Source of the DNA: Eubacteriales bacterium
GTDB taxonomy: Bacteria > Bacillota > Clostridia > Lachnospirales > Lachnospiraceae
Reading direction: 5' to 3'
Assembly: GCA_030536995.1 (NCBI GenBank)
Contig: JAUNOY010000005.1
Coordinates: forward strand, 1-48,437
DNA length: 48,437 nt
Shown here: one piece after another, positions 28,134-47,188 of the stretch
Numbering within the stretch: the stretch's first letter is position 1
Layout: the number at the start of each line of letters is the position of its first letter
The notes under the pieces: model-generated
What the model was told of the DNA's origin: nothing
The model's database searches: none
What the model saw: only the letters and a program-made list of their open reading frames with translations
Made by a program: the position numbers and the translations under genes

Positions 28134-29513
28134 ATGAAAAAATTAAAAAAATGGTTAGCAGCGGCTCTGGCTGCTGCAGTTGTAAGTACAGCCGGTTTCA
28201 CAGCTACGGTTTCAGCGCAGTCATCGGGATATCAGCGATGGGACACAGTGGCGGAGGAAGAACGAGTTCCTGCAGCTTTTGCGAAGGATAAGGACGAAAA
28301 AAAGAAAATAGACCCCAAGGCATGGAAGAAAATAAACGGTGTCTGTTACAATGGAATCGGGAAGAAAATTCCGGGGGCAATTACAAGGGGGATTGATATA
28401 TCTGAATGGCAGGGCAGGCCAAATTGGAAAAAAATAAAAAAATCCGATGTAGATTTTGCTTTTATACGTATTTCCTATGGAACGGGACACATGGATAAAT
28501 CCTACGATTATAATATGCTTCAGGCAGAAGAGGCAGGAGTTCCGGTGGGAACCTATGTCTACAGTCTGGCAACCACCACAGATCAGGCTCTGGAGGAAGC
28601 GAAGCTTGCCATCGAAAAAATGGATGGCTACAAGGTATCCTACCCGGTTGTATTCGATTTGGAAGATTCCAGAATGGAAGGTCTTACAAGAAAGCAGGTT
28701 TCTAATCTTGCAAAGACGTTCTGCGAGGAAGTAAAAAAAGCAGGTTATTATCCTATGGTATACTGTAATACCAACTGGTATGACAATGAGGTGGATTGGG
28801 ATATCCTTGGAGAATACGATGTATGGCTTGCGAAATACGGAGATAAGATTCCGGCTCCTTCCCATGAAGATTATGATTATACAATCTGGCAGTGTACAGA
28901 TGGATATGGGGGCGGACTTTTAAATCCTACAAAGGGGCTGATTGATGGTATTGATGATAATGTGGATATAAATTTTGGCTTCGTAGATTACACGAAGATT
29001 ATCAAGCCGAGAAAATATACAGCATCCGGATATAAACCTTCCAGTCATCCTTCAATTGATATTGACGGAAATAAATGGGGTTCCATAAACGGCTGGAGAA
29101 AAGAAAACGGAAAGACTTACTATTATGTAAATAACAGAAAGGTTACGGGCGTTAAAAAAATCGACGGGAAATATTATCGCTTTAGTACAAAAACAGGCGC
29201 TATGTATACAAACCGCAGAATTGTAGATACAAAAGGAAATATTTGTTATTATGGTGCGGATGGCGCACGTTATGCAAACGGATTCCACAAAGTAAAAATT
29301 AACGGAAAAATGAAAACATTTTATTTCAGCAAATCGGGAATTGCCCATAAAGGCTGGGCAACGATTGACGGAAAAAAATATTACTTCTACAAAGGAACAT
29401 CTGTTAATTCCGGGACAAGAGCAGAAAATATAACCCTTACAAGTTCCAAAAACGTTGTTTCTGTTTTTGATAAAAACGGTGTCTGCATCAAGCAGTACCA
29501 AAAGAAAAAATAA
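28134..29513 (+). CDS. GH25 lysozyme with cell-wall-binding repeats
   Basis: Secreted N-acetylmuramidase of 459 aa. A signal peptide (MKKLKKWLAAALAAAVVSTA) is cut near VSA-QS. The glycoside hydrolase 25 domain covers about residues 84-285, with the catalytic-type residues Asp88 in RGIDISEWQG and Asp175/Glu177 in VVFDLED, plus the conserved YTIWQCTDGYGG. The C-terminal third carries wall-binding modules such as GKTYYYVNNRKVTGVKKIDG and GWATIDGKKYYFYKG. AAAGGGGAT is 12 bases before the ATG, a long spacing. It probably remodels the wall or acts as an autolysin. It stands between the L,D-transpeptidase and the glycan operon. Confidence 0.94.
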   Translation: MKKLKKWLAAALAAAVVSTAGFTATVSAQSSGYQRWDTVAEEERVPAAFAKDKDEKKKIDPKAWKKINGVCYNGIGKKIPGAITRGIDISEWQGRPNWKKIKKSDVDFAFIRISYGTGHMDKSYDYNMLQAEEAGVPVGTYVYSLATTTDQALEEAKLAIEKMDGYKVSYPVVFDLEDSRMEGLTRKQVSNLAKTFCEEVKKAGYYPMVYCNTNWYDNEVDWDILGEYDVWLAKYGDKIPAPSHEDYDYTIWQCTDGYGGGLLNPTKGLIDGIDDNVDINFGFVDYTKIIKPRKYTASGYKPSSHPSIDIDGNKWGSINGWRKENGKTYYYVNNRKVTGVKKIDGKYYRFSTKTGAMYTNRRIVDTKGNICYYGADGARYANGFHKVKINGKMKTFYFSKSGIAHKGWATIDGKKYYFYKGTSVNSGTRAENITLTSSKNVVSVFDKNGVCIKQYQKKK

Positions 29514-30783: not shown

Positions 30784-32046
30784 ATGAAAAAATGGAAAAA
30801 AGTACTCTGCTCGGTGATGGCAGGGATCATAGTGGCTGCCCTGCCTGTACAGGCGGCAGTTGTGGATCAGGAAATAAAGGCTGCAATTGAGACAAATGAT
30901 ATACCGCCGTGGCCGAAAGCTTCTGACTTGATGGCCGAAAGCGGTATTCTGATGGAATTTTCCACCGGAACTGTTATTTACAGTAAAGGAGGAGACCAGC
31001 GCATTTCTCCATCCGGTCTCACGAAGCTGATGACAATTCTGCTGGCAGTTGAAAATTCTGCTTTCACAGATCAGGTTACTTTTACAGACATCTGTCTTGC
31101 TAAGGCAGATCCGGAAAAAAATCTGGGGCTTGTGGCAGGAGAAACACTGACTATGGAACAGTGTCTGAAGGCTATGACCCTGGAAAATTCATATGAGATT
31201 GCAGCTCAGGTTGCTGAAAATCTGGGACCGTCTGAGGCGCAGTTTGTTGCAAAAATGAACGAGAGAGCAAAAGCAATTGGTTGTAAAAACACGAATTTTA
31301 CCAATGCGGGCGGAAATTTCGATCCGAATCAGTATACGACAGCCCGAGATATGACCAAAATATTTCGAGAGGGCTTAAAGAATAAAATGTTCCGAAAAAT
31401 AATAAGAACATCGAAGCTCACGGTAGGTCCTACGAATCTCAACGGTATGGAACGGTCCGTGTCAACCTATCATCCGATCCGCTCCAAATATTCGAGTATT
31501 TTTGATCCGGACTGTATGGGCGGTACATTTTCTGTATCTCAGGAGGCAGGAAGCAGTCTTGCCACAGCAGTGAAAAAAAATGGAGTTATTTATATTTCAG
31601 TAGTGCTGAATGATGTGGATATCAATCAGGCGGGAGTAGATACCCAGTATCTTATGAAATACGGATATGAGAATTTTCAGAAGATTCCGGTAAACGGAGG
31701 GAGCGTGGTAATCCCCAACGGAATGTCAGTGGCAGATCTCCAGATAAGTGAACAAAAATCCGGAGATAAAGTGCGCCAGTTTTATGCTGTGGATAACTAT
31801 AGAGTTGGACGCGGTGTGAAGCAGGAGGCGGTTCCGGCTCCGGAGGTACGTTCTGACGAGCAGATTACGGAAGAACAGACAGATAGAATGAGACAGACGC
31901 CTGTTGAGGAAGCAAAAGAAAACGGTCTTTCTGATACAGCCAGAATACTTTTGGGAGTCATGGCGGTCATGGTGATCATTCTTATCATTCTTTGTATCCT
32001 TCTTGCAATCAAAGATCATAAAGAACGCAGATACTACGAAGATTAG
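30784..32046 (+). CDS. Degenerate PBP5-family D-Ala-D-Ala carboxypeptidase homologue (probable pseudoenzyme)
   Basis: A 420-aa secreted, C-terminally membrane-anchored protein with the DacF/PBP5 (peptidase S11) fold. It has a signal peptide ending near VQAA and a final membrane segment (LLGVMAVMVIILIILCILLA). All three catalytic motifs are altered. SxxK reads P76-S-G-L-T-K81, so the nucleophile position (K-3) is Gly78. SxN aligns with N135-S-Y137. KTG aligns with T247-F-S249. The surrounding scaffold is retained (KLMTILLAVENS, FVAKMNERAKAIGCKNTNFTN). Hydrolytic activity is therefore unlikely; a binding or scaffolding role in wall-polymer assembly is possible. It lies 15 bases after rffA. Confidence 0.85.
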   Translation: MKKWKKVLCSVMAGIIVAALPVQAAVVDQEIKAAIETNDIPPWPKASDLMAESGILMEFSTGTVIYSKGGDQRISPSGLTKLMTILLAVENSAFTDQVTFTDICLAKADPEKNLGLVAGETLTMEQCLKAMTLENSYEIAAQVAENLGPSEAQFVAKMNERAKAIGCKNTNFTNAGGNFDPNQYTTARDMTKIFREGLKNKMFRKIIRTSKLTVGPTNLNGMERSVSTYHPIRSKYSSIFDPDCMGGTFSVSQEAGSSLATAVKKNGVIYISVVLNDVDINQAGVDTQYLMKYGYENFQKIPVNGGSVVIPNGMSVADLQISEQKSGDKVRQFYAVDNYRVGRGVKQEAVPAPEVRSDEQITEEQTDRMRQTPVEEAKENGLSDTARILLGVMAVMVIILIILCILLAIKDHKERRYYED

Positions 32047-32107: not shown

Positions 32108-32668
32108 ATGGGAAAAATTACGGTAACACAGTGCGGCGATATTAAAGGTTTAAAAGTAGTAGAACCGGCAGTTTTTGGGGATGAACGCGGTTATTTCATG
32201 GAGACCTACAATTACAATGATTTTAAGGAAGCAGGAATTGACGTACAGTTTGTACAGGACAATCAGTCCAGTTCCAGAAAGGGGGTTCTTCGCGGACTCC
32301 ACTTCCAGATCAATTACCCTCAGGACAAGCTAGTGCGCGTGGTAAGCGGTGAAGTTTTTGATGTGGCTGTAGACCTTCGCAAGGATTCAGAAACCTATGG
32401 CAAATGGTATGGTGTAATTCTTTCCGCAGAAAATAAAAAACAGTTTTTTATTCCTAAGGGATTTGCACATGGATTTCTGGTGCTCTCCGATAATGCGGAA
32501 TTTGCATATAAGTGCTCTGACTTTTATCATCCAAACGATGAGGGCGGTCTTATCTGGAATGACCCGGAGATTGGTGTAGAGTGGCCTGTTCAGGATGGTG
32601 TAGAGCTTATATTTTCCGAGAAAGACCAGAAATGGGGAAGCTTTGCCCAGTACAACAGCGAAAAATAA
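32108..32668 (+). CDS. rfbC: dTDP-4-dehydrorhamnose 3,5-epimerase
   Basis: RmlC epimerises dTDP-4-keto-6-deoxy-D-glucose at C3 and C5 on the way to dTDP-L-rhamnose. The 186 aa have the cupin-fold hallmarks: DERGYFMETY, QDNQSSSRKGVLRGLHFQ with catalytic His65, KLVRVVSGEVFDVAVDLR, FIPKGFAHGFLVLSD and YKCSDFYHP with the catalytic-type tyrosine. ATG 32108 is preceded by AGAGGA; the frame is open upstream to 32003 but that part overlaps the preceding gene and lacks homology. The partners rmlA, rmlB and rmlD are not in the window and must be elsewhere if rhamnose is made. Confidence 0.95.
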   Translation: MGKITVTQCGDIKGLKVVEPAVFGDERGYFMETYNYNDFKEAGIDVQFVQDNQSSSRKGVLRGLHFQINYPQDKLVRVVSGEVFDVAVDLRKDSETYGKWYGVILSAENKKQFFIPKGFAHGFLVLSDNAEFAYKCSDFYHPNDEGGLIWNDPEIGVEWPVQDGVELIFSEKDQKWGSFAQYNSEK

Positions 32669-32706: not shown

Positions 32707-33516
32707 ATGGATCAGAAAAAAAATCATATGATAAATAACAAAAAACTGATCGCCTATCTGACGAAAAATGACTTTAAAACAAGGTTTGCAGGCTCTTATT
32801 TCGGGATTGTCTGGGGCTTTATCCAGCCCCTTGTCACAATCCTTCTTTACTGGTTTGTTTTTCAGCTTGCGCTAAAGCCCGGACCGATGACAAATACGGA
32901 CGTACCTTTTGTCCTCTGGCTGATGGCAGGGCTTGTACCCTGGTTCTTTTTCTCAGAAGCAGTGATCAACGGAACCAATTGTTTTCTTGAATATAATTAT
33001 CTGGTAAAAAAAGTAATGTTTGATATTAAAATTCTGCCTCTTGTAAAGGTATTATCTTCTTTATATGTACATGTTTTTTTTGCTGGGATTTTGGCTGTCG
33101 CCTATCTTATCAGTGGGAATTTCCCGGGAATTACTTTTATCCAGGTATTTTATTATTCATTTGCTATGGTGATGCTGTGTCTGGCGATCGTCTATTTTAC
33201 AGCTTCTGTGACTGTGTTTTTTAAAGATACCACTCAGCTTGTGGGAATCGCTATGCAGGTTGGAGTATGGATGACGCCTATTATGTGGAACTTTCAGGAT
33301 ATGGCATCCAGAGTACCGGCAGTCATTCAGGGAATTCTGAAATTAAATCCCATGTTTTATATTGTGCAGGGATATCGTGATGCAATGGTTGACAAAATAT
33401 GGGTCTGGGAACGGGGCGGACTTACTCTGTATTTCTGGTGTTTTGTGTCTGTTCTCTTTTTTATCAGCAGCAGAGTTTACAAAAAACTGAAACCACAGTT
33501 CTCAGATGTACTATAA
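32707..33516 (+). CDS. wzm: Polysaccharide ABC exporter permease (Wzm/TagG family)
   Basis: ABC-2 type membrane subunit that exports a lipid-linked glycan across the cytoplasmic membrane. The 269 aa show six hydrophobic segments and family hallmarks: TKNDFKTRFAGSYFGIVWGF at the N-terminus, QPLVTILLYWFVF, PFVLWLMAGLVPWFFFSE, and the conserved MTPIMWNF plus LNPMFYIVQGYRDA near the C-terminus. AAGGA at 32694-32698 is eight bases before ATG 32707; an ATG at 32728 is an alternative. The ATPase subunit follows 24 bases later. Confidence 0.94.
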   Translation: MDQKKNHMINNKKLIAYLTKNDFKTRFAGSYFGIVWGFIQPLVTILLYWFVFQLALKPGPMTNTDVPFVLWLMAGLVPWFFFSEAVINGTNCFLEYNYLVKKVMFDIKILPLVKVLSSLYVHVFFAGILAVAYLISGNFPGITFIQVFYYSFAMVMLCLAIVYFTASVTVFFKDTTQLVGIAMQVGVWMTPIMWNFQDMASRVPAVIQGILKLNPMFYIVQGYRDAMVDKIWVWERGGLTLYFWCFVSVLFFISSRVYKKLKPQFSDVL

Positions 33517-33540
33517 ACAGTCTGAATGGAGTATAAACGA

Positions 33541-34845
33541 ATGAAAGAAACAGCGATTAAGGTCTCAAATGTTTCCAAGGTTTACCGTCTTTACGATAAA
33601 CCTTCTTTGAGACTGAAAGAAGCGTTCAGTATAAGAAAAAAATCCTATCACAAAGATTTCCACGCCTTAAATGATGTATCTTTTGAAGTGAAGAAAGGCG
33701 AGATGCTTGGAATCATCGGAAAGAACGGGGCGGGCAAATCCACGCTCTTAAAAGTCATTACAGGAGTTCTGACGCCATCCTCCGGACAAGTAGAGATTAA
33801 TGGAAAAATTTCTGCTCTTCTGGAACTTGGCGCAGGCTTTAATCCGGAATATAACGGAATCCAGAATGCCTATCTTTCCGGTACTATGATGGGATTTACA
33901 GAAGAGGAGATGGATGCGAAGCTGGATGGGATCCTGAAATTTGCGGACATCGGGGATTTTGTGAAGCAGCCGGTAAAAACTTATTCCAGCGGTATGTTTG
34001 CACGCCTTGCCTTTGCGGTTGCAATTAGCGTGGAACCGGATATCCTGATCATTGATGAGGCATTATCTGTAGGTGATGTCTTTTTTCAGGCGAAATGTTA
34101 TAAAAGAATGGAAGAACTGAAGAACAGCGGAAAGACCGTCCTTTTTGTCACCCATGATATGGGAAGTGTGATGAAATACTGCGAGCGCTGTATTATCATC
34201 AATAATGGAGGGTTGTATGCGCAGGGACCGACTAAGCCGATGATCGATCTCTACAAGAAGGTTCTTGTAGGACAGGCTCCGGATGCAGCAGTTCTTGACG
34301 AGCATATGATGGAGGAGCTTACATCGGAGATTACAACGACAGAGGTAAGTGCAGATTCCTGGCAGGATTCTATGCTTATTAATCCTAATCATGAGGATTA
34401 CGGGGATGGAAGAGCAACTATTATTTCCTTTGGGATTTTTGACAACAGCGGAAATATCACAAATACTATTTACAAGATGTCGGATTTTACAATCAAAATG
34501 CGGGTGAAATTTGCCCAGCGCATTGAGAATCCGATTTTCGCCTTTTCTATCAAGGATTTAAAGGGAAATGAACTTACGGGAACAAATACCCGAATTGAAA
34601 AAATTGATACAGGATACGTGGAGGCAGGGGAAACCATTGAAGTGGCTTTTACCCAGAAAATGATTCTTCAGGGAGGACAGCAGTTGATTTCCCTTGGTTG
34701 TACAGGATTTGAAAACGATGAGTTGGTAGTTTATCATCGCCTTTACGATATCTGCTGCCTTCAGGTGATTGCCGATAAGACAACGGTGGGATACTGTGAT
34801 ATGGATTCAAAGGTGAAGTATACAAGGAGCGTTACAAATGGCTAA
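33541..34845 (+). CDS. wzt: Polysaccharide ABC exporter ATPase with C-terminal glycan-recognition domain (Wzt)
   Basis: ATPase of the exporter, 434 aa. Walker A is GIIGKNGAGKSTLL at about residues 57-70, the signature is YSSGMFARLAFAVAI, Walker B is DILIIDEALSVGD and the H-loop is VTHDMGSV. After about residue 270 there is a beta-sandwich Wzt_C domain (GDGRATIISFGIFDNSGN onward). In E. coli O9a this domain binds the modified non-reducing end of the finished chain and licenses export. ATG 33541 is chosen because GGAG at 33528-33531 lies nine bases upstream; ATG 33526 has no ribosome site. It overlaps the next gene by eight bases. The methyltransferase and kinase-like genes downstream could provide the recognised cap. 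Confidence 0.93.
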   Translation: MKETAIKVSNVSKVYRLYDKPSLRLKEAFSIRKKSYHKDFHALNDVSFEVKKGEMLGIIGKNGAGKSTLLKVITGVLTPSSGQVEINGKISALLELGAGFNPEYNGIQNAYLSGTMMGFTEEEMDAKLDGILKFADIGDFVKQPVKTYSSGMFARLAFAVAISVEPDILIIDEALSVGDVFFQAKCYKRMEELKNSGKTVLFVTHDMGSVMKYCERCIIINNGGLYAQGPTKPMIDLYKKVLVGQAPDAAVLDEHMMEELTSEITTTEVSADSWQDSMLINPNHEDYGDGRATIISFGIFDNSGNITNTIYKMSDFTIKMRVKFAQRIENPIFAFSIKDLKGNELTGTNTRIEKIDTGYVEAGETIEVAFTQKMILQGGQQLISLGCTGFENDELVVYHRLYDICCLQVIADKTTVGYCDMDSKVKYTRSVTNG

Positions 34846-36649
34846 ATTAAAGAAACTGGCGGCTATGGCAGGCCTGTGTATCAGGGAACCGGAAACCCTG
34901 CTCAAAGGCGTGAAATATCTGAAAAACCACGGCGCTGCAGGATTTATGGAGAATTTAAAAGGCAGAGCGGAATATGAGACAAACCCGGATGTGTTCAGCT
35001 ATCTTGTGGGGCTGGAAAAGAAGGGGCCATTTAATGGAGAGATTAAATTTTCTGTTATCATGCCTGTCTATAATGTTGAGGTAAAATGGCTGGAAAAGGC
35101 AATACAGTCGGTACAGAATCAAAATTATGTCAACTGGGAATTGTGTATTGCCGATGACTGTTCTACAAAAGAAGAGACAAGGGAATATTTAAAAAAGATA
35201 GATGATCCGAAAATCCATATTAAGATGCTGGAAAAAAACTGCGGTATTTCTGAGGCTACAAATGCGGCTGCAGAAATGGCAGACGGAGATTATCTTGTGC
35301 TTATGGATAATGACGATGAATTGTCTTTTTTTGCTCTTTTCGGATTTTATAAGAATATTATGAATACAAAGGCGGATATTATCTACAGCGATCAGGATAT
35401 TATTGATGAAAATGGTAATCACAGAGAGCCGCTGTTTAAGCCGGACTGGTCACCTGACCTGATGAGAAGTCAAATGTATGTGGGACATCTTCTGGGCTTT
35501 AGAAGAAGTCTTTTCAAGGCGGTTGGCGGGTTCCGAAGCAAGTTTAACGGAAGTCAGGATTACGATCTGTTTCTTCGTATGAGTGAGAAGACAGATAATA
35601 TTCAGCATGTATCCAAAATCTGTTATTCATGGAGAGCGCTTCCAAGTTCTACGGCGGCAAATCCTGATTCCAAACCTTATGCTCAGACTGCAGGGCTGAT
35701 GGCAGTTTCCGAGCATCTGGAACGTACCTTTGGAAAGGGAAATGCCGAAGCTTTTGAGACAGAAGATTTATTTGTTTATGATGTGAGATACAAGTTGGAA
35801 GAGAAACCTCTGGTGTCCATTATCATGCCTACAAAGGATGCTGTGAATTATCTTCGTGAGGTAATCGACAGCATTGAGGAGAAGACCGAGTATCCGAATT
35901 ATGAAGTACTGATTCTGGACAACAACTCAGAGAAAGAAGAAACCTTCCGATATTTTGAGGAAGTTACAGAAAAATACAGCAATGTTCGCGTAGTGAAAGC
36001 AGAGCTTCCGTTTAACTGGTCCTTACTGAATAATTTCGGTATGAAACAGGCAAAAGGCGATGTTTTTATTTTCATGAACAACGATATGAAAGTAATTTCA
36101 CCTCAGTGGATGACCCGTCTTACAGAAAAAGCGCTTCGCCCTGACTGTGGAGTAGTTGGAGGGCTTCTCCTGTATGAGGATGGAACGATTCAGCATGCAG
36201 GCGTTGTCTGCGGAATCGGAGGATGGGCAGATCATGTATTTAAGGGGATGAAGCCGGTGCATTACGGTTCTCCGTTCATGTCTCCTATGGTGACCAGAAA
36301 CGTGACCGCAGTGACGGGGGCATGTATGGCTATTTCCAGAAAAACAATTGAGGAAATTGGGACATTCAATGAGAATTTCATTGTATGCGGCAGCGATGTG
36401 GAAATCTGTATTCGTGCGCTGCAGTGTGGAAAGGTCAATATTTATGATCCTTATGTAAGGCTGTATCATTATGAATCCAAGAGTCGTGACCCGAAAGATA
36501 TTCCGGAGGTTGATTTTACTCTTTCCCACGAGATGTATATGGCTTATAACTGTCTGAAAGACCCTTACTATAACGAAAATCTTGATTATATGAGCAGCGT
36601 CCCGAAAGTGTCAGTAAAAAAACAGGACGCAGGCAGGAGGAGAAAATGA
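34838..36649 (+). CDS. Tandem family-2 glycosyltransferase (two GT-A domains)
   Basis: A 603-aa cytoplasmic enzyme with two GT2 modules. The first begins at KFSVIMPVYN near residue 70 and has the metal-binding motif LMDNDDE near 157. The second begins at LVSIIMPTKD near 325 and has FMNNDM near 412, then TGACMAISRK and CGSDVEICIR. An amphipathic N-terminal helix region (LKGVKYLKNHGAAGF) may attach it to the membrane. Such twin-domain enzymes build rhamnan-type backbones by alternating linkages. Donor sugar cannot be read from sequence; rhamnose is likely from context. It overlaps wzt by eight bases and the next gene by ATGA. Confidence 0.9.
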   Translation: MAKLKKLAAMAGLCIREPETLLKGVKYLKNHGAAGFMENLKGRAEYETNPDVFSYLVGLEKKGPFNGEIKFSVIMPVYNVEVKWLEKAIQSVQNQNYVNWELCIADDCSTKEETREYLKKIDDPKIHIKMLEKNCGISEATNAAAEMADGDYLVLMDNDDELSFFALFGFYKNIMNTKADIIYSDQDIIDENGNHREPLFKPDWSPDLMRSQMYVGHLLGFRRSLFKAVGGFRSKFNGSQDYDLFLRMSEKTDNIQHVSKICYSWRALPSSTAANPDSKPYAQTAGLMAVSEHLERTFGKGNAEAFETEDLFVYDVRYKLEEKPLVSIIMPTKDAVNYLREVIDSIEEKTEYPNYEVLILDNNSEKEETFRYFEEVTEKYSNVRVVKAELPFNWSLLNNFGMKQAKGDVFIFMNNDMKVISPQWMTRLTEKALRPDCGVVGGLLLYEDGTIQHAGVVCGIGGWADHVFKGMKPVHYGSPFMSPMVTRNVTAVTGACMAISRKTIEEIGTFNENFIVCGSDVEICIRALQCGKVNIYDPYVRLYHYESKSRDPKDIPEVDFTLSHEMYMAYNCLKDPYYNENLDYMSSVPKVSVKKQDAGRRRK

Positions 36650-37881
36650 AAAATTTAGTAAAAGGAGTGATTCGCAAAGCTGCTCATGCAGCAATTGAGA
36701 AGACAACTCCAATGGATACGAATATTGCGGAAATCACTCCTTATACTTTCCGTAAGATAGATTTCCCTGAAAAAAGAATTAATCTTCTTGTTCCGTCCAT
36801 TAATCCGGAGCATGTATTTGGCGGAATATCTACAGCGCTGAAATTTTTCGGTGAGTTAGGAGAAAAGACTGGCTATGCCATGCGTATGATTCTGGTGGAT
36901 GCTGCACCCTCCGAGGAGGCAAAGAAGAATTTCAGCGATGTGTACACTTTTGTGGATATGGCAGAAGACTCTTTGGAAAGAAAGCAGATTGTAGCGTACA
37001 GTGACCGCGCAGGCAAAAGTATTCCTGTTTCCGTAAATGATATTTTTATGTTTACGGGTTGGTGGACTGCACACTGTGCGCAGGAAGCTTATGAGGAATT
37101 CGAAGAAAAAGAAGGAATTGTACCAAATATTTTTATTAATTTTATTCAGGACTTTGAGCCGGGATTTTATCCCTGGTCATCCAGGTATCTTCTTGCGGAG
37201 GCGACCTATAAGAATCGTTATCCGCAGATTGGAGTGTTCAATACAGGACTTCTCCATGATTATTTCAAAAATAACGGTTTTTCTTTTGCTCATGAATTTG
37301 TCTTTGAGCCTGTGCTCAATGCAAGTTTGAAAGCTCAGCTTCCGAAAGAAGGGGAAACAGTAGAGAAAAAGAAACAGATTCTTCTTTACGGAAGACCGGG
37401 AACCGAGAGAAATGCATTTAACCTGATTGTTGCGATTCTGAAAAAATGGGTGACAATGCAGGAAAATGCAGAAGAATGGACGATTCTTTCTGCAGGAGAA
37501 CAGCATGAGCCTGTAGAACTTGGAAACGGAATGGCAATCCGCTCTGTGGGCAAACTTACTCTGGAGGAGTACGCGCGAACTCTGAGAGAATCCTATGCAG
37601 GAATTTCCCTGATGGCGTCCCCTCATCCAAGTTATCCGCCTCTGGAAATGTCTGTTTTTGATATCAAGGTTATGACAAATACATTTGCAAATAAGAATTT
37701 AAAAGATTTCAATGAAAATATTATTTCCATGGATAATATCAGCCCGGTTAATATGGCAAGACGTCTGAAAGAAATATGTGATGGATATACAGCTACGGTA
37801 CAGCACAGAGAGTCCAACCCGAAATATCTGGAAAACACAGAGTTGTTTTCCTTTATTGATGAGATTAAGACTTTGCTGTAG
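36646..37881 (+). CDS. WsaF-like rhamnosyltransferase
   Basis: A 411-aa GT-B glycosyltransferase resembling WsaF, the rhamnosyltransferase of the Geobacillus S-layer glycan. The N-terminal domain has RINLLVPSINPEHVFGGIST and ALKFFGELGEKTG; the middle has IFINFIQDFEPGFYPWSSRY; the C-terminal domain has ILLYGRPGTERNAFNLIVAI, ILSAGEQHEPVELGNG and GISLMASPHPSYPPLEM, where the donor nucleotide would bind. GGAGGAGAAA precedes the ATG and the start overlaps the preceding stop by ATGA. It supports a rhamnose-containing product for the operon. Confidence 0.85.
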   Translation: MKNLVKGVIRKAAHAAIEKTTPMDTNIAEITPYTFRKIDFPEKRINLLVPSINPEHVFGGISTALKFFGELGEKTGYAMRMILVDAAPSEEAKKNFSDVYTFVDMAEDSLERKQIVAYSDRAGKSIPVSVNDIFMFTGWWTAHCAQEAYEEFEEKEGIVPNIFINFIQDFEPGFYPWSSRYLLAEATYKNRYPQIGVFNTGLLHDYFKNNGFSFAHEFVFEPVLNASLKAQLPKEGETVEKKKQILLYGRPGTERNAFNLIVAILKKWVTMQENAEEWTILSAGEQHEPVELGNGMAIRSVGKLTLEEYARTLRESYAGISLMASPHPSYPPLEMSVFDIKVMTNTFANKNLKDFNENIISMDNISPVNMARRLKEICDGYTATVQHRESNPKYLENTELFSFIDEIKTLL

Positions 37882-37890
37882 GAGGTTTAT

Positions 37891-38802
37891 GTGGAAGAGA
37901 GAATTGGAAATGTAGTGTTGGATTATACATTTTATAAAGGAACAGACCAGTACAGCGATGGAGAGATAGAGGATGTGCTTCTTTCTCTGATTCAGAAAGA
38001 TCCGGATGTGGACAGGATTATCCGAGAGGATAAAAGATGGCCGGTCTTATATCATTTTTCTCCGATCAGGCAGAATATAGTGGAGTGGTATCCCTTTAAA
38101 AAGGATGCCAGCGTTTTGGAGATCGGTGCAGGCTGCGGTGCGATCACAGGTGGTTTGTCTAAAAAGGCAAAGTCTGTCACCTGTGTGGATCTGTCCCGTC
38201 GTCGTTCCCTTATCAATGCGACCAGGAATCAGAAGTGTGACAATGTGCGTATTATGGTGGGGAATTTTAATGATATTGTTCTGGAAGAAAAATTTGATTA
38301 TATTACGCTTATCGGCGTGATGGAATATGCTGCATACTATACAGAAGGAACAGAGCCTTTCAGAGGATTTCTGGAAAATATTGCGAAGCTTCTCAAGCCA
38401 GATGGAAAGGTTCTTATAGCCATTGAGAATAAATTCGGCATGAAATACTGGGCAGGCTGCAGGGAAGACCATACAGGAGGATTCTTTGACGGTCTGGAAG
38501 GGTATCATCAGACAGACAGCAAGGTGCGAACATTTGGAAAAGAGGAGTTGAAGGAAATTTTAAATTCGGCAGGTTACGGGGAAACACAATTTTATTATCC
38601 GTTCCCTGATTATAAGTTTCCTCAGCAGATCTTTTCAGACGACTATCTGCCGTCGCCGGAAGATTTGGTATGTTCCCTGGAATCCTACGACGCAGATCGT
38701 CTGCGTTTGTTTGACGAGACTTCTGTGTTCAGAAATGTGGTAAATGCAGGTAAGTTCGACTTTTTTGCAAATTCATATTTCATTGAAGCAGGCAGAAAGT
38801 AG
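37891..38802 (+). CDS. SAM-dependent methyltransferase, likely glycan-modifying
   Basis: A 303-aa class I methyltransferase. Motif I is VLEIGAGCGAITGGL near residues 75-89, motif II ends in TCVDLSRRRSLINATR, and the motif IV region is FDYITLIGVMEYAAYY. LLKPDGKVLIAIENKFGMKYWAG is followed by a substrate region (EDHTGGFFDGLEGYHQ). This arrangement with an N-terminal lead-in resembles the methyltransferase half of WbdD-type chain terminators. It starts at GTG 37891, five bases after GGAGG. The kinase-like gene follows 10 bases after its stop, and the pair sits downstream of the Wzm/Wzt exporter. A role in capping the glycan end is inferred; transfer to an internal sugar is the alternative. Confidence 0.88.
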   Translation: MEERIGNVVLDYTFYKGTDQYSDGEIEDVLLSLIQKDPDVDRIIREDKRWPVLYHFSPIRQNIVEWYPFKKDASVLEIGAGCGAITGGLSKKAKSVTCVDLSRRRSLINATRNQKCDNVRIMVGNFNDIVLEEKFDYITLIGVMEYAAYYTEGTEPFRGFLENIAKLLKPDGKVLIAIENKFGMKYWAGCREDHTGGFFDGLEGYHQTDSKVRTFGKEELKEILNSAGYGETQFYYPFPDYKFPQQIFSDDYLPSPEDLVCSLESYDADRLRLFDETSVFRNVVNAGKFDFFANSYFIEAGRK

Positions 38803-38812
38803 AGGTGTCAAA

Positions 38813-40081
38813 TTGAAGAAAATCTTTTCGAAATTTACAAGAGAGAGGGATGTACGTTTTCAGATTGAGACTTCCATTTATCTGGAAAACGGAGAAAAGT
38901 TTGCGCAGAAGCGTCCCCTTACAGATTCTGCAGCACCTCATGTCGCTGCTTTATATGAGAACTGTAAATATTTCCGTGAAAAAGGCGTAACTCTTTTTAC
39001 AGAATGTGAACCATTTGAAGATGGAGTGCGTTTTCCTTTTGTAAAAGGTGTGACGTATTACACACAGATTCTGCAAGCGGTTGAAGACGGAGACAGAACC
39101 CGATTCGACGGTCTTCTTGAAACGTATAAGACTCTGGTGGAGGAAAGCTGTGGTAAGGAGTTTGCAGAGTTTGAAACTTCTGCAGAATTTGAAGCAGTTT
39201 TCGGGAAAATTCCGGAACTGAAAGAAAAGAAAGCCTGCAGAAAACTGGATATTGATCTGACTCTGGATAATCTGATTCTTCTTCCGAATGGAGAAAACCG
39301 TATCATTGATTATGAGTGGATGTTTGATTTTTTGGTTCCTGTAGAATTTGTTTACTACAGGGCTGCGCTTGCGCTTTATGTGCGAAACGGTGAAGGAATG
39401 AATGCATTTGCAGGAAGAGATGAGCTGTTTGGCAAATTCGGCCTGGGCAGGAAAGAACAGGAAATCTACGGGCAGATGAACGAGGCATTTAATGCTTATA
39501 CCTCCGGTGGGGAGAAATCTTTCCATAAGGCACTGAAAAAATATGCAAAGAAGTCACATACTCTTTCTGAATGGGCAAAACAATCCTGCAGTGTTGTCCA
39601 GCTCTATATCAGTGAGGATGCATCCTTTGAAAATGCAGTATGTCTGGATTTCGAAGCAGGAGAAAAAATTGATCTGCAGATTGATCTGAAGGAGTTTAAA
39701 GACGTGAGAATGATTCGTCTTGATCCTCTGAACGTACCGGTAACGATTCATGATTTTTCTTTTTTCTTTACAGTGAACGGGGAAGAAAAGAGAGTCGAGC
39801 CGATTGGTTTTCGCCATAATGCGATGATGGTTTATCAGGAAAGTTATGTTTTTGCAGAGGAAGACCCTCAGATTATATGGGATATTCCTGAGGGGATGAA
39901 ACCGGAAAAGCTTCACATCACATATTCCATCGGTGAACAGGAGGATGGACGGACGCTTATGAAAGCGCAGATGGAGGAACTTAAAGCAAAGGAAAAGAAG
40001 CTTTCCTATATTGAGGGAACCAAAGCTTACAGAATCTTCCTTGAGAAAAAAGTAAATGCAGTATTTGGAGGGGAAAATTGA
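38813..40081 (+). CDS. Kinase-like protein with beta-sandwich and C-terminal coil (WbdD-kinase-like)
   Basis: A 422-aa protein, start UUG 38813 five bases after AGAGGTG. The N-terminal half looks like a small-molecule/APH-type kinase: a strand pair with Lys33 (FAQKRPL), a catalytic-loop pattern D148-L-T-L-D-N153, and a DFG-equivalent Asp166 in RIIDYEW. Residues about 280-395 look like a beta-sandwich (VRMIRLDPLNVPVTI). A short heptad-like coil (MKAQMEELKAKEKKLSYIEG) and an AYRIFLEKK tail end it. WbdD of E. coli O9a joins a methyltransferase, a kinase and a coiled-coil in one chain and terminates O-antigen; here the first two are adjacent genes. The kinase assignment is from motif reading only. 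Confidence 0.65.
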   Translation: MKKIFSKFTRERDVRFQIETSIYLENGEKFAQKRPLTDSAAPHVAALYENCKYFREKGVTLFTECEPFEDGVRFPFVKGVTYYTQILQAVEDGDRTRFDGLLETYKTLVEESCGKEFAEFETSAEFEAVFGKIPELKEKKACRKLDIDLTLDNLILLPNGENRIIDYEWMFDFLVPVEFVYYRAALALYVRNGEGMNAFAGRDELFGKFGLGRKEQEIYGQMNEAFNAYTSGGEKSFHKALKKYAKKSHTLSEWAKQSCSVVQLYISEDASFENAVCLDFEAGEKIDLQIDLKEFKDVRMIRLDPLNVPVTIHDFSFFFTVNGEEKRVEPIGFRHNAMMVYQESYVFAEEDPQIIWDIPEGMKPEKLHITYSIGEQEDGRTLMKAQMEELKAKEKKLSYIEGTKAYRIFLEKKVNAVFGGEN

Positions 40082-41421
40082 AAAAAGAACTGACAGTCTG
40101 GATGAAAAGGCGAAAAGCACAGCTTGTTTTTACAGGAATCCTCTTTATTCTGCTGGCGTTCTGGGCACTTGTAATGCCCTTTGAGGCTGCGCCGGATGAG
40201 GGAATGCGTTTCCAGATACCGGAATATATTGCCAGATATCACAGTCTCCCTGACGGGAGAGATGAGGCGCTTCGCAATCCCCAGTGGGGAATTTCCTATG
40301 GTTTCGGACCTCAGCTTACTTATATTCTGCAGGCGATTTTTATGTCTGTTATGGCTGTATTTACGCAGGCAAAAGGTTCTGCCATGTTTGCAGCCAGAAT
40401 GGTCAGTGTTCTGGCGGGTACGGGAACGATATGGATGAGTATACTGATCAGTGAAAAGCTGTTTGAAAAAAAATACAGGAAACTGTTTGTGGCGCTGGTA
40501 AGTCTTCTGCCCCAGTTTCTTTACCTTTCTACCTATATCAATAATGATGCGCTGGCTTTATTCGGAACAGCAGTAATCGTATACATGTGGATATGCGGGA
40601 GTGAATCCGGCTGGAATATCAGAAGCTGTATCGGGATTACAGCAGGAATTGTAATCTGTACGCTTACATATTTTAATTCCTACGGGTTTATTCTGTGCAG
40701 CATCTTCTTTCTTTTCGGTAGTTTGTTTATGCAAAAGAAGCCGCTGAAAGAAATTGCAGGTAAATCTCTTTTTATTGCAGCGCTTGTACTGTTTCTCACG
40801 TCCTGGTATTTCATTAGGAATTATTTCCTGTATGATGGAGATATTCTGGGAATGAAAATCAGTACGGAGTATGCGGAAATGTACGCAATAGACAGTCTGA
40901 AGCCTTCTATGCGCCGGACACCGGCAAATACAGGAACCTCTCTGGCAGCAATGTTTTTCGGAGAATCGCAGTGGTTTGCAGTGAGTTGGAAGAGTTTTGT
41001 AGGTGTATTCGGGCATATGGCTGTTTATATGCGCCAGTGGCAGTATTATTTTTATGCATTTCTGTTCTGGATTGGGGCAGGAGGAATTTTTTTCAGAAAA
41101 AAGGCAGGGAACAGGAAGAGAGAAAGCCGTCTGTTTACAGGGGTGATGGCTGCGGCAGGAGTGATACCGTTTGCTCTGTCTCTGTATAATTCCTACTATT
41201 CTGATTATCAGCCTCAGGGACGTTATCTTATGCCCATGCTGATTCCTATGATGTATTTTGTAACGAAAGGTCTTCAGAATGTGTTAGAGCATTTTATAAA
41301 ACCGGAACAGACAGAGCGGGTAATTCGTATAATTACAGTAATACTTTTGGGAATTATGATTTATGTGTATATAGGAATCTGGTTCATGACATATAAAGAC
41401 GGATTGAATCTTTTGACCTGA
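40078..41421 (+). CDS. Polytopic membrane glycosyltransferase-like protein (DUF2142/GT-C)
   Basis: A 447-aa membrane protein with about eleven hydrophobic segments. The first extracytoplasmic loop carries PFEAAPDEGMRFQIPEYI, the acidic (P)DE motif of DUF2142 and related GT-C enzymes that use polyprenyl-phosphate sugars outside the membrane. The conserved TYINNDALALFG and a late loop YSDYQPQGRYLMP also fit. It may add a side-branch sugar after export. Start is UUG 40078 in a TTGA overlap with the kinase-like gene, behind GGAGGGG. A very strong bidirectional terminator follows, ending the operon. Confidence 0.82.
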   Translation: MKKELTVWMKRRKAQLVFTGILFILLAFWALVMPFEAAPDEGMRFQIPEYIARYHSLPDGRDEALRNPQWGISYGFGPQLTYILQAIFMSVMAVFTQAKGSAMFAARMVSVLAGTGTIWMSILISEKLFEKKYRKLFVALVSLLPQFLYLSTYINNDALALFGTAVIVYMWICGSESGWNIRSCIGITAGIVICTLTYFNSYGFILCSIFFLFGSLFMQKKPLKEIAGKSLFIAALVLFLTSWYFIRNYFLYDGDILGMKISTEYAEMYAIDSLKPSMRRTPANTGTSLAAMFFGESQWFAVSWKSFVGVFGHMAVYMRQWQYYFYAFLFWIGAGGIFFRKKAGNRKRESRLFTGVMAAAGVIPFALSLYNSYYSDYQPQGRYLMPMLIPMMYFVTKGLQNVLEHFIKPEQTERVIRIITVILLGIMIYVYIGIWFMTYKDGLNLLT

Positions 41422-41474: not shown

Positions 41475-42719
41475 TCACGATTTGATGATACGGATCATAA
41501 GGAAGAGAAGAAGGAGGAGAACGGAAATTCCGATTCCGCCAATAACATAATACATGGTGTTGTTTCTGGTGGCAGAAAAGTCTTTTGCCTCTTTCATATT
41601 TTTTTCGCCAATTTCTGCTTTGGTGTCTTCTGCTGCAACCTCGTTTTCGAGAGTGGCAGTTCCGACTCTTGTATCTCCGAAATAATAGCTTCTGCGGATT
41701 TTATCGCCTTTTTCTTTATCCTTGAAGGTAAGGCTGTCCGCAGAGGCGCCGTTTGGAACAAAAACGATTCCTCCGGAAATCCTGTTCAGGTCTTCGTCCG
41801 GAAGTTCCAGCCTGCCGAAATTGTCATAACCGTAATTTAAAAGAGAAATGGCTTCGTCGTCTGTGACTCCGGCTGCGCCGTTAAGCACTACGCAGATAAG
41901 AGTGACTCCGTTTCTGGAAGCCGCGCATACAAGGGTACTGCCGGACGCCTGAGTGTATCCTTCCTTGCCGCCCAGACATCCCTGATAATAGGCAGGGTCT
42001 GCAGTATTGGTCATGGTGAATTTATTGGTAAGGGCACGTTCGCCGCCGGATACGTTGGTAGCCGGAATGGTATAGGACTGGGCTGCGGCGATAGTGCGGA
42101 AGGTATCGTTGTTCATTGCTGCTCGCATGATCAGCGCCATATCGTAGGCTGTAGTGTGCTGATTTTCGTCGGGAAGTCCTGTAGGATTGGTAAAGATGGT
42201 ATCTTTACAGCCGAGCTCTTTTGCACGGGCGTTCATTTTTTCGACAAAGGCTTCTACAGAGCCGCCCACATGTTCTGCAACCTGAAGTGCGATATCGTTG
42301 GCGGAAGCAACCATGATCGCATAAAGGCACTGCTCCATAGTAAAGGTTTCATCAAGCTGGGCAGATATGTTCACACCTCCGTCTGTAACACCGGAAACTC
42401 CGGTAGCCGTCATGGTAACGGTATCTGTAAGCTGGCTGTTCTCAAGAGCTACGAGGGTTGTCATAATTTTGACAGCAGCAGACGGATAAAGAGGCTGGTT
42501 TGCATTTTTGGAAAAAAGAGAAGTCTTTGTGGACGATTCCATAACTACGGCAGCAGTGGACGAAATATCTGCCGCCTGAGGCCAGCCCGGGATTGCATTT
42601 GTCTTAATGGAAGAGGTCTGTTCTGCGCCCTGTGCAGTTGCTGATACAGGCATCTGGAAAAGAAGAGAAGCGCTGATTCCAAGAGCCAGAACAGCAGCGG
42701 TAAGTTTCTTTTTTATCAT
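41475..42719 (-). CDS. PBP5-family D-Ala-D-Ala carboxypeptidase homologue lacking the SxxK serine
   Basis: A 414-aa secreted protein with a C-terminal anchor (MYYVIGGIGISVLLLLLFLM), paralogous to the protein at 30784-32046. Shared landmarks are TNAIPGWPQAADI, KIMTTLVALENSQLTD and FVEKMNARAKELGCKDTIFTN. The SxxK motif reads P79-S-A-A-V-K84, so the nucleophile position K-3 is Ala81, with a Ser one place earlier. SxN is intact (S139-A-N141), and KTG is K252-E-G254. It is probably inactive or strongly altered, though less decayed than its paralogue. TAGGAG lies 12 bases before the ATG. An extended -10 TATACT lies upstream. Confidence 0.85.
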   Translation of the reverse strand: MIKKKLTAAVLALGISASLLFQMPVSATAQGAEQTSSIKTNAIPGWPQAADISSTAAVVMESSTKTSLFSKNANQPLYPSAAVKIMTTLVALENSQLTDTVTMTATGVSGVTDGGVNISAQLDETFTMEQCLYAIMVASANDIALQVAEHVGGSVEAFVEKMNARAKELGCKDTIFTNPTGLPDENQHTTAYDMALIMRAAMNNDTFRTIAAAQSYTIPATNVSGGERALTNKFTMTNTADPAYYQGCLGGKEGYTQASGSTLVCAASRNGVTLICVVLNGAAGVTDDEAISLLNYGYDNFGRLELPDEDLNRISGGIVFVPNGASADSLTFKDKEKGDKIRRSYYFGDTRVGTATLENEVAAEDTKAEIGEKNMKEAKDFSATRNNTMYYVIGGIGISVLLLLLFLMIRIIKS

Positions 42720-45784: not shown

Positions 45785-47188
45785 TTGTTAGTGGACAATG
45801 AAAAAAATTTCAGTCCGGTGAATATGCTCGTTGACGCAGTGGCAGTAGGTCTGTCCTATCTTTTTGCCTGGCTTATACGTTTCGTGGGGCCGTTTTCAGA
45901 TACGGCGGTCAGGGCGAGAAGTTTCGAGCAATATATGATGTGGCTTGTCTTTATTATTCCGCTGTATCTGCTTTTGTATCAGGCTTTTACTTTATACACA
46001 CCGATGCGTATGCAGGGACGCCGTCTTCTGCTGGCGAACATTATTAAGGCAAACAGTTTGGGGCTTCTTATCATTATGTTTACTTTTTACATGATTGATG
46101 AGGGGGAATTTTCCAGATCTACTTATATTATGTTCTACCTTTTCAATATTGTACTGCAATGGGGCTCCCGTATGCTGATGTTTGCTTTTCTCAAAAATAT
46201 GAGAGAGCGCGGACTGAATCAGAAACAGATTATCTGTGTTGGCTACAGCCGTGCAGCAGAGGAGTATATTGACAGGGTGCTTAAGAATCCGCAGTGGGGA
46301 TATATCATTCGCGGAATTCTTGATGACAATGTTCCGGCAGGTACCATGTATAAGGGAATCAAGGTTATCGGTCGTATTGCCAACCTTGATGTTATTCTTC
46401 CTGCAAACCGTCTGGATGAAATTGCAATCACTCTTGGACTGAATGAGTACTATCGTCTGGAGGAGATTGTTGCTTTGTGCGAAAAGTCAGGAGTACACAC
46501 GAAATTTATTCCGGATTATAATAGAATTATCCCTACGAAGCCATATACAGAGGATATTCTCGGACTTCCGGTAATCAACATCCGATATGTCCCGCTCAGT
46601 AATACGTTCAATGCTCTTGTGAAACGTTGCATGGACATTGTCGGTTCTATAGTGGGAATCATCGTTACTTCACCGGTAATGCTTGTTATGTGTATTCTGA
46701 TTAAACTTACATCACCCGGTCCTTTGATCTATAAGCAGGAGAGAGTCGGACTTCATAATAAGACTTTCTGGATGTATAAATTCCGTTCTATGGAAATACA
46801 GCCGGAAGCAGAAGAAAAAAAAGCATGGACTGTTAAAAATGACCCCAGAGTTACAGGGATCGGCAAGTTTATGCGGCGTACAAGTATTGATGAGCTTCCT
46901 CAGCTTTTCAACATATTAAAAGGCAATATGAGTCTTGTAGGGCCAAGACCGGAAAGACCTTTCTTTGTGGAAAAATTCAGGGAAGAAATTCCCAGATATA
47001 TGGTGAAGCACCAGGTTCGCCCGGGACTGACCGGCTGGGCACAGGTAAACGGTTTCCGCGGAGATACGTCTATCAGGAAGCGTATCGAATGTGATCTTTA
47101 TTATATTGAGAACTGGAGTGTAGGATTTGATATAAAGATTATGTTCCTGACGATTTTTAAAGGCTTTGTAAACAAAAACGCATACTAA
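45785..47188 (+). CDS. Polyprenyl-phosphate sugar-1-phosphate transferase (WbaP/WcaJ-like)
   Basis: Initiating enzyme that moves a hexose-1-phosphate onto undecaprenyl phosphate. The 467 aa contain four or five N-terminal membrane segments, a Rossmann-like CoA-binding_3 domain (IICVGYSRAAEEYIDRVL), a membrane hairpin (VGSIVGIIVTSPVMLVMCIL) near residue 285 and the catalytic domain. Motifs include SPGPLIYKQERVGLHNKTF, MYKFRSM near 335, RRTSIDELPQLFNILKGNMS and LVGPRPERPFF. The start is UUG 45785, seven bases after GAGGTG; GTG 45791 is an alternative. The LCP gene follows 16 bases downstream. Confidence 0.94.
   Translation: MLVDNEKNFSPVNMLVDAVAVGLSYLFAWLIRFVGPFSDTAVRARSFEQYMMWLVFIIPLYLLLYQAFTLYTPMRMQGRRLLLANIIKANSLGLLIIMFTFYMIDEGEFSRSTYIMFYLFNIVLQWGSRMLMFAFLKNMRERGLNQKQIICVGYSRAAEEYIDRVLKNPQWGYIIRGILDDNVPAGTMYKGIKVIGRIANLDVILPANRLDEIAITLGLNEYYRLEEIVALCEKSGVHTKFIPDYNRIIPTKPYTEDILGLPVINIRYVPLSNTFNALVKRCMDIVGSIVGIIVTSPVMLVMCILIKLTSPGPLIYKQERVGLHNKTFWMYKFRSMEIQPEAEEKKAWTVKNDPRVTGIGKFMRRTSIDELPQLFNILKGNMSLVGPRPERPFFVEKFREEIPRYMVKHQVRPGLTGWAQVNGFRGDTSIRKRIECDLYYIENWSVGFDIKIMFLTIFKGFVNKNAY

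Follow-up and report, generated by a model that had tools for sequence, protein, structure and literature searches.

A methyltransferase–kinase gene pair as a candidate two-chain terminator of an exported surface glycan in Lachnospiraceae

What do a methyltransferase and a kinase-like protein do side by side in a glycan export operon of a Gram-positive bacterium? The question is raised by contig JAUNOY010000005.1 of a Eubacteriales bacterium of the Lachnospiraceae (assembly GCA_030536995.1), analyzed over positions 1 to 48,437 of the forward strand (the window), in which the two genes, here called MT and KIN, occupy positions 37,891 to 40,081. A preliminary description made from the sequence alone had taken them for a split relative of WbdD, the chain terminator of Escherichia coli O9a. 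In our analysis, the closest relative of the pair is best read as the ORF6 terminator of Klebsiella O7, of which MT and KIN would be a two-chain, Gram-positive relative. We consider it probable that they are the two chains of a surface-glycan terminator in which KIN phosphorylates, MT methylates, the cap stops elongation, and the C-terminal domain of the exporter ATPase Wzt (Wzt_C) reads the cap.

The two chains and the kinase fold of KIN

The main features of the pair are as follows.

37891..38802, + strand: MT, class I S-adenosylmethionine (SAM) methyltransferase chain, 303 amino acids (Methyltransf_12, E = 1.2e-11)
38813..40081, + strand: KIN, kinase chain, 422 amino acids, TTG start; kinase core, beta-sandwich and short C-terminal helices
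38813..39592, + strand: APH-type kinase core, KIN residues 1–260
38909..38911, + strand: Lys33 codon of KIN (invariant, 45/45)
39254..39271, + strand: catalytic loop D148-x4-N153 of KIN (invariant, 45/45)
39308..39319, + strand: metal-binding loop D166-Y-E-W of KIN (D166, E168, and W169 invariant, 45/45)
39596..39931, + strand: beta-sandwich module, KIN residues 262–373 (low-confidence model strands; module profile)
39938..40015, + strand: C-terminal helix or short coil, KIN residues 376–401 (structure model)
40022..40066, + strand: terminal helix, KIN residues 404–418 (low-confidence model; close relatives end similarly)

MT and KIN are separate, adjacent open reading frames (ORFs) with a gap of 10 bases, and the earlier reading of a class I methyltransferase followed by a kinase-like gene is confirmed by the Methyltransf_12 match and by the APH fold of KIN with its D148, N153, and D166. 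The proposed kinase residues, Lys33, D148-x4-N153, and Asp166, are borne out as well, being invariant in all 45 aligned KIN sequences together with E168 and W169. We take Lys33 to be the ATP-site lysine and D166-Y-E-W to be the metal-binding loop known from kinase families. KIN itself has no match in Pfam up to an E value of 1 and a single chance match in NCBIfam (0.13), while 3 of the 45 members reach Pfam APH, the best with E = 0.0045. Structure and sequence comparison together place the fold in the APH-type kinase superfamily, with D-x4-N and the metal-binding Asp, and the fold is AmiN-like; the structure check suggested for 38813–40081 thus returned a kinase fold. The beta-sandwich and short C-terminal coil described after the kinase are likewise suggested by the model, the strands at low confidence. 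In a comparison with its nearest stand-alone relatives, the window protein has the shortest tail after the beta-sandwich (53 residues) and L040 the longest (138), and such varied lengths would suit a ruler role.

Relationship to ORF6 of Klebsiella O7

ORF6 of Klebsiella pneumoniae O7 (accession MN173773.1) adds a phosphate to O3 of the terminal rhamnose and a methyl group to that phosphate, which yields a methyl-phosphate cap (PMC11231755). Its single chain begins with the methyltransferase, continues with a kinase that has no family annotation and is most like AmiN, then with an Ig-like domain and a coil, and ends in two modules of glycosyltransferase family 2 (GT2) (PMC11231755). Its catalytic Asp is D441, the D441A mutant giving no conversion, and Kelly and colleagues list Y28, Y66, G91, G93, E112, and Y158 as SAM-site residues (PMC11231755). 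A plasmid search, of whose four matching records the best two were examined (a second search gave only the same two), found MT-KIN-like fusions in Citrobacter braakii and Pseudomonas asturiensis, next to wzm-wzt in both, and each fusion scores 208 bits with the MT profile. The Pseudomonas fusion has all six SAM-site residues at the published numbers of ORF6, and the equivalents in the window MT are Y21, Y54, G79, G81, D100 (Asp for Glu), and Y146. Moreover, D148 of the window KIN aligns with D443 of the Pseudomonas homologue, a number close to that of D441, the catalytic Asp of ORF6 (PMC11231755). Aligned with seven distant fusion kinases (the Citrobacter and Pseudomonas proteins and five from other families of the phylum), the KIN profile reaches an hhalign probability of 99.1 (E = 2e-18). 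The window pair is read as a relative of ORF6 because of these three results: the 208-bit scores of MT on the fusions, the matching SAM-site numbers, and the hhalign match of KIN. The C. braakii fusion (L096:8944-10893) lies on a conjugative plasmid with rml, wzm, and wzt.

The likeness extends to the MT family (via the homologues), an AmiN-like kinase that family libraries do not annotate, Wzm-Wzt neighbours, and rhamnose genes, and may include the beta-sandwich after the kinase and a coil (PMC11231755). Unlike ORF6, the window system has two chains, neither with a glycosyltransferase, a short coil, and a Gram-positive host. ORF6 orthologues are named in alpha- and gammaproteobacteria and cyanobacteria, with homologues in Methanoculleus (PMC11231755); the terms Gram-positive and Firmicut are absent from the main text of that report, and no paper on a Gram-positive methyltransferase-kinase terminator was among the literature matches listed. 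What is new in the pair would be that a characterised capping enzyme also has a Gram-positive form, which is often split into two chains.

The beta-sandwich of KIN had been described as having no known counterpart in WbdD. Because ORF6 carries an Ig-like fold after its kinase (PMC11231755), a described counterpart probably exists there. A profile of the module matches 46 of 76 KIN proteins (some partial or duplicate) and ten other proteins, and the beta-sandwich is, judged by sequence, a mobile module. Three methyltransferases of 450–497 amino acids beside other Wzt_C genes (L120:1552-2904, L124:1865-3244, and L127:3-1493) carry it with no kinase match; these proteins are possible methyl-only terminators. 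In seven long Wzm permeases of 451–471 amino acids, the N-terminal segments, by eye a membrane helix plus a soluble domain, match the beta-sandwich as a set (hhalign 96.8, E = 2.5e-10), the single matches being weak.

Long Wzm permeases: L054:12957-14372, L069:13026-14393, L074:14360-15769, L058:5529-6926, L093:3513-4901, L123:108-1463, L125:1877-3280

Occurrence, fusion, and linkage to the Wzt_C exporter

The KIN profile matches 215 of 397 genomes of the family (194 with a single-sequence query) and 12 of 398 genomes in a sample of the phylum, 4 of the 12 from the same family; the named KIN relatives are Lachnospiraceae. Among 45 loci taken at a first look (the window, four others, and 40 among the best KIN matches, hence not a random draw), all have an MT match, 44 a Wzt match, and 40 a Wzm match. 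With the next 20 loci, 15 of them picked by Wzt_C position and so not random, all 65 have an MT match, 63 have Wzt_C, and 58 have Wzm; L039, which lacks Wzt_C, is a 4-kb contig.

Of the 397 genomes, 240 carry Wzt_C, and 202 of these also have KIN while 38 do not; among the genomes without Wzt_C, 13 have KIN and 144 lack both (Fisher p = 2.6e-55, kinship among genomes being ignored). The survey of co-occurrence proposed in the preliminary description thus came out in favor of a link, with Wzt_C in 202 of the 215 KIN genomes. In two genomes with a strong Wzt_C and no KIN (G170 and G362), Wzt_C lies within 300 bases of a contig end, and in G170 a piece of MT is cut at that end (L099). Five of the 13 KIN-only genomes (G005, G186, G265, G299, and G338) have weak KIN matches, from 9.7e-7 to 3.5e-4; for the other eight, six loci were read (L128–L133), and G277 and G312 were left out. 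No MT or KIN match was found in 12 other Wzt_C loci (L136–L147) over the 11–20 kb read.

A Wzt_C tree was built from the window and 30 randomly sampled KIN loci, 19 other rows of the same family, O9, and the two Gram-negative fusions, without matches shorter than 100 residues and with each locus entered once. All 31 KIN-locus rows fall on one side of a branch with 98/95 support, and the 19 other rows, O9, and the two fusion rows fall on the other. The MT-KIN pair is linked to one group of Wzt_C. Nine of the 19 other rows come from loci of about 2–3.4 kb, where the absence of KIN rests on the genome-wide profile search, and one of these nine (L116, G300) belongs to a genome with KIN elsewhere; the row L119 is very long and unsure.

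MT and KIN form a single chain in 35 of 70 loci and neighbouring genes in the other 35, and in 21 of the 70 a GT2 module is joined to KIN. The 70 are the 65 loci above plus L128, L129, L130, L134, and L135, with L131 and L132 (truncated by contig ends) and L133 (no MT) excluded; L068, counted as fused, sits in a locus with broken frames. On the KIN tree, the fused or split state changes 14 times, at least nine of these changes being forced by supported branches. This repeated switching argues that MT and KIN act together, and the idea of a two-chain capping module tied to a Wzt_C exporter is supported, since the fused relatives show that the chains belong together. At the locus L068/L114 (G205), Wzt, Wzt_C, and MT are each divided among short frames, which suggests breakage or poor assembly, and the pieces were searched as such.

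In the window, the exporter and its neighbours are arranged as follows.

32108..32668, + strand: RmlC, dTDP-4-dehydrorhamnose 3,5-epimerase (PF00908, E = 4e-75; ORF read from 32099)
32707..33516, + strand: Wzm, ABC-2 permease (PF01061, E = 5.9e-13)
33526..34845, + strand: Wzt ATPase with C-terminal Wzt_C (ABC_tran 2.5e-26, Wzt_C 1.8e-40)
34387..34803, + strand: Wzt_C domain, proposed cap reader (profile match; KIN-linked side of the Wzt_C tree)
34838..36649, + strand: GT2 glycosyltransferase with two modules (Glycos_transf_2, two stretches)
36646..37881, + strand: WsaF-type rhamnosyltransferase (WsaF_N 2.5e-62, WsaF_C 6.5e-49)
40078..41421, + strand: possible GT-C type membrane glycosyltransferase (weak PMT_2, E = 0.0013, under the family cut-off)
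45785..47188, + strand: initiating sugar-phosphate transferase, Bac_transf (PF02397, E = 1e-72)

MT and KIN share an operon with Wzm, Wzt-Wzt_C, the two-module GT2 protein, the WsaF-type rhamnosyltransferase, and the weak PMT_2 ORF, flanked by RmlC immediately upstream and by the initiating sugar transferase downstream. The presence of Wzm and of a Wzt with an extra C-terminal domain in the same operon, noted earlier, was verified by PF01061, ABC_tran, and Wzt_C, the last with 138.7 bits against a Pfam cut-off of 30.4. Upstream of the cluster, choline-binding repeats occur in a YkuD transpeptidase-like (25401–27953) and a GH25 lysozyme-like protein (28134–29513). The ORFs at 30784–32046 and 41475–42719, on opposite strands and flanking the exporter-to-KIN stretch, resemble by eye a related pair of D-Ala-D-Ala carboxypeptidases.

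A proposed capping mechanism and its alternatives

In the mechanism that we propose, a glycan exported by Wzm-Wzt, probably rich in rhamnose, would be phosphorylated by KIN on its non-reducing terminal sugar, and MT would then methylate the terminal phosphate, as single-chain ORF6 does. The cap would halt elongation, and Wzt_C would take it as the export signal; a methylated cap recognised by a Wzt domain is described in Aquifex (PMC9445017). The beta-sandwich probably holds the glycan, and the C-terminal helices would dock the enzyme to the membrane or the polymerase and may set chain length. Computation gives the kinase fold and motif, the methyltransferase family, the homology of KIN to ORF6-like kinase domains, the repeated fusion and splitting, and the Wzt_C linkage.

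A number of results weigh against the proposed terminator and its kinship to ORF6. We infer the acceptor, the product, the two-chain complex, cap reading, and length control, and the kinship to ORF6 draws on its published residue numbers and its homologues. Scores of the KIN profile on the Gram-negative fusions are low (22.9 bits for Pseudomonas and 4.8 for Citrobacter); in Citrobacter, the SAM-site residues lie at numbers one off from those of ORF6, and the kinase part has Glu in place of the DYEW Asp. In addition, the Wzt_C domains of both fusions group with O9, away from the same-family KIN clade. The distant relative L165:8927-11200 joins MT-like and KIN-like parts to a cytidylyltransferase domain on one chain, and L133, read over 15 kb, has KIN with GT2 but lacks an MT. 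The coil of the window KIN is short, a 26-residue helix in the model; 30 of the 76 KIN proteins (some cut) have no beta-sandwich match, and the module profile scores a weak 7.5 bits on the Pseudomonas homologue. MT-KIN also occurs without a neighbouring Wzt_C at five loci whose contigs were read on both sides (L094, L128, L129, L134, and L135), and in L128, L129, and L134 an ABC protein without the Wzt_C domain lies within the stretch.

WbdD resembles the window system in the order of methyltransferase, kinase, and coil, in the gene order wzm-wzt-terminator, in its Wzm and Wzt-Wzt_C neighbours, and in the proposed phosphorylation and methylation of the glycan end (PMC3482155). It differs in being one chain with a longer C-terminal region (residues 460–708, with coiled-coil motifs), and a beta-sandwich is not mentioned in the part of PMC3482155 that we draw on. 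That KIN and MT stem from a WbdD-type ancestor and diverged strongly would agree with the shared domain order, with the order wzm-wzt-WbdD-wbdA in E. coli HS, and with a D-x4-N ... ID motif that the distant fusion kinases have in common with WbdD (E = 0.0079 and probability 5 over 20 columns). We nevertheless regard such descent as extremely improbable: BLASTP of WbdD from E. coli HS gave no usable match to MT, to KIN, or to a fused relative (the best, with E = 0.008, lies beyond the kinase core), hhalign of the KIN profile with WbdD as a single sequence reached a probability of 0.2, the MT profile scores 5.5 bits on WbdD versus 208 on the ORF6-like fusions, and the O7 and WbdD kinases are called quite different in sequence and structure (PMC11231755). 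No WbdD entry stands among the 50 listed structure matches of KIN, a listing that excludes nothing. The identity of a split WbdD is thus not supported as kinship, and the window pair is best read as one that would work like WbdD, by analogy.

A different role altogether would be a small-molecule pathway, in which KIN phosphorylates a small alcohol such as choline or ethanolamine and MT methylates it, to give a product that is attached to the wall, as phosphocholine is in LicA-type systems; we give this little credence, as 21 of 70 loci have a GT2 module on the same chain as KIN, the pair tracks one Wzt_C group, the glycan itself is the substrate of the kinase in the characterised homologue (PMC11231755), and a Pfam scan finds no cytidylyltransferase in the window KIN and eight other relatives. 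The terminator might instead make another cap, with MT methylating a sugar hydroxyl or the phosphate ending up cyclic, and two separate chains would let the reactions part. The Clostridioides difficile SLCT-11 S-layer glycan, likewise Gram-positive, ABC-exported, and phosphorylated on its non-reducing terminal rhamnose, ends in 2,3-cyclophosphoryl-rhamnose (PMC6254364), and WsaE of the WsaE/WsaF system of Geobacillus stearothermophilus, which shares with the window a Gram-positive host, Wzm-Wzt, a WsaF homologue, rhamnose, and a methylated end, adds 2-O-methyl to rhamnose (PMC2943079). Compared by description, both differ from the window: the phosphate of SLCT-11 is cyclic and a kinase or methyltransferase goes unmentioned in the main text of PMC6254364, whereas WsaE has a methyltransferase and two glycosyltransferase modules, with no kinase described in the part of PMC2943079 considered. 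The C. difficile glycan offers a precedent for a terminal phosphate on a Gram-positive, ABC-exported glycan; another cap nonetheless seems decidedly unlikely, given that MT belongs, via its homologues, to the family of ORF6, which methylates phosphate (PMC11231755). It is rather doubtful that capping by the pair neither sets glycan length nor controls export, with other roles for the coil and Wzt_C: the short coil and the five loci without a neighbouring Wzt_C would fit, but Wzt_C is present in 202 of 215 KIN genomes and the sampled Wzt_C domains of KIN loci form one group. An unlikely but more elaborate possibility is that about half of the family's species have a capping checkpoint whose split form lets KIN stop glycans by phosphate and MT license export by methyl on separable chains, so that stopped, unexported glycans can be held; the beta-sandwich common to terminators, methyltransferase-only relatives, and some permeases would then be a shared glycan-reading system.

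If the two-chain terminator related to ORF6 is real, it would predict the end group of a surface glycan across much of a gut bacterial family, in which 215 of the 397 sampled genomes carry the kinase, and would extend to Gram-positives a type of cap so far described from O antigens of Gram-negatives. Fusion and splitting, the variety of tail lengths, and the matching Wzt_C group would then provide a natural series for the coupling of capping, length, and export.
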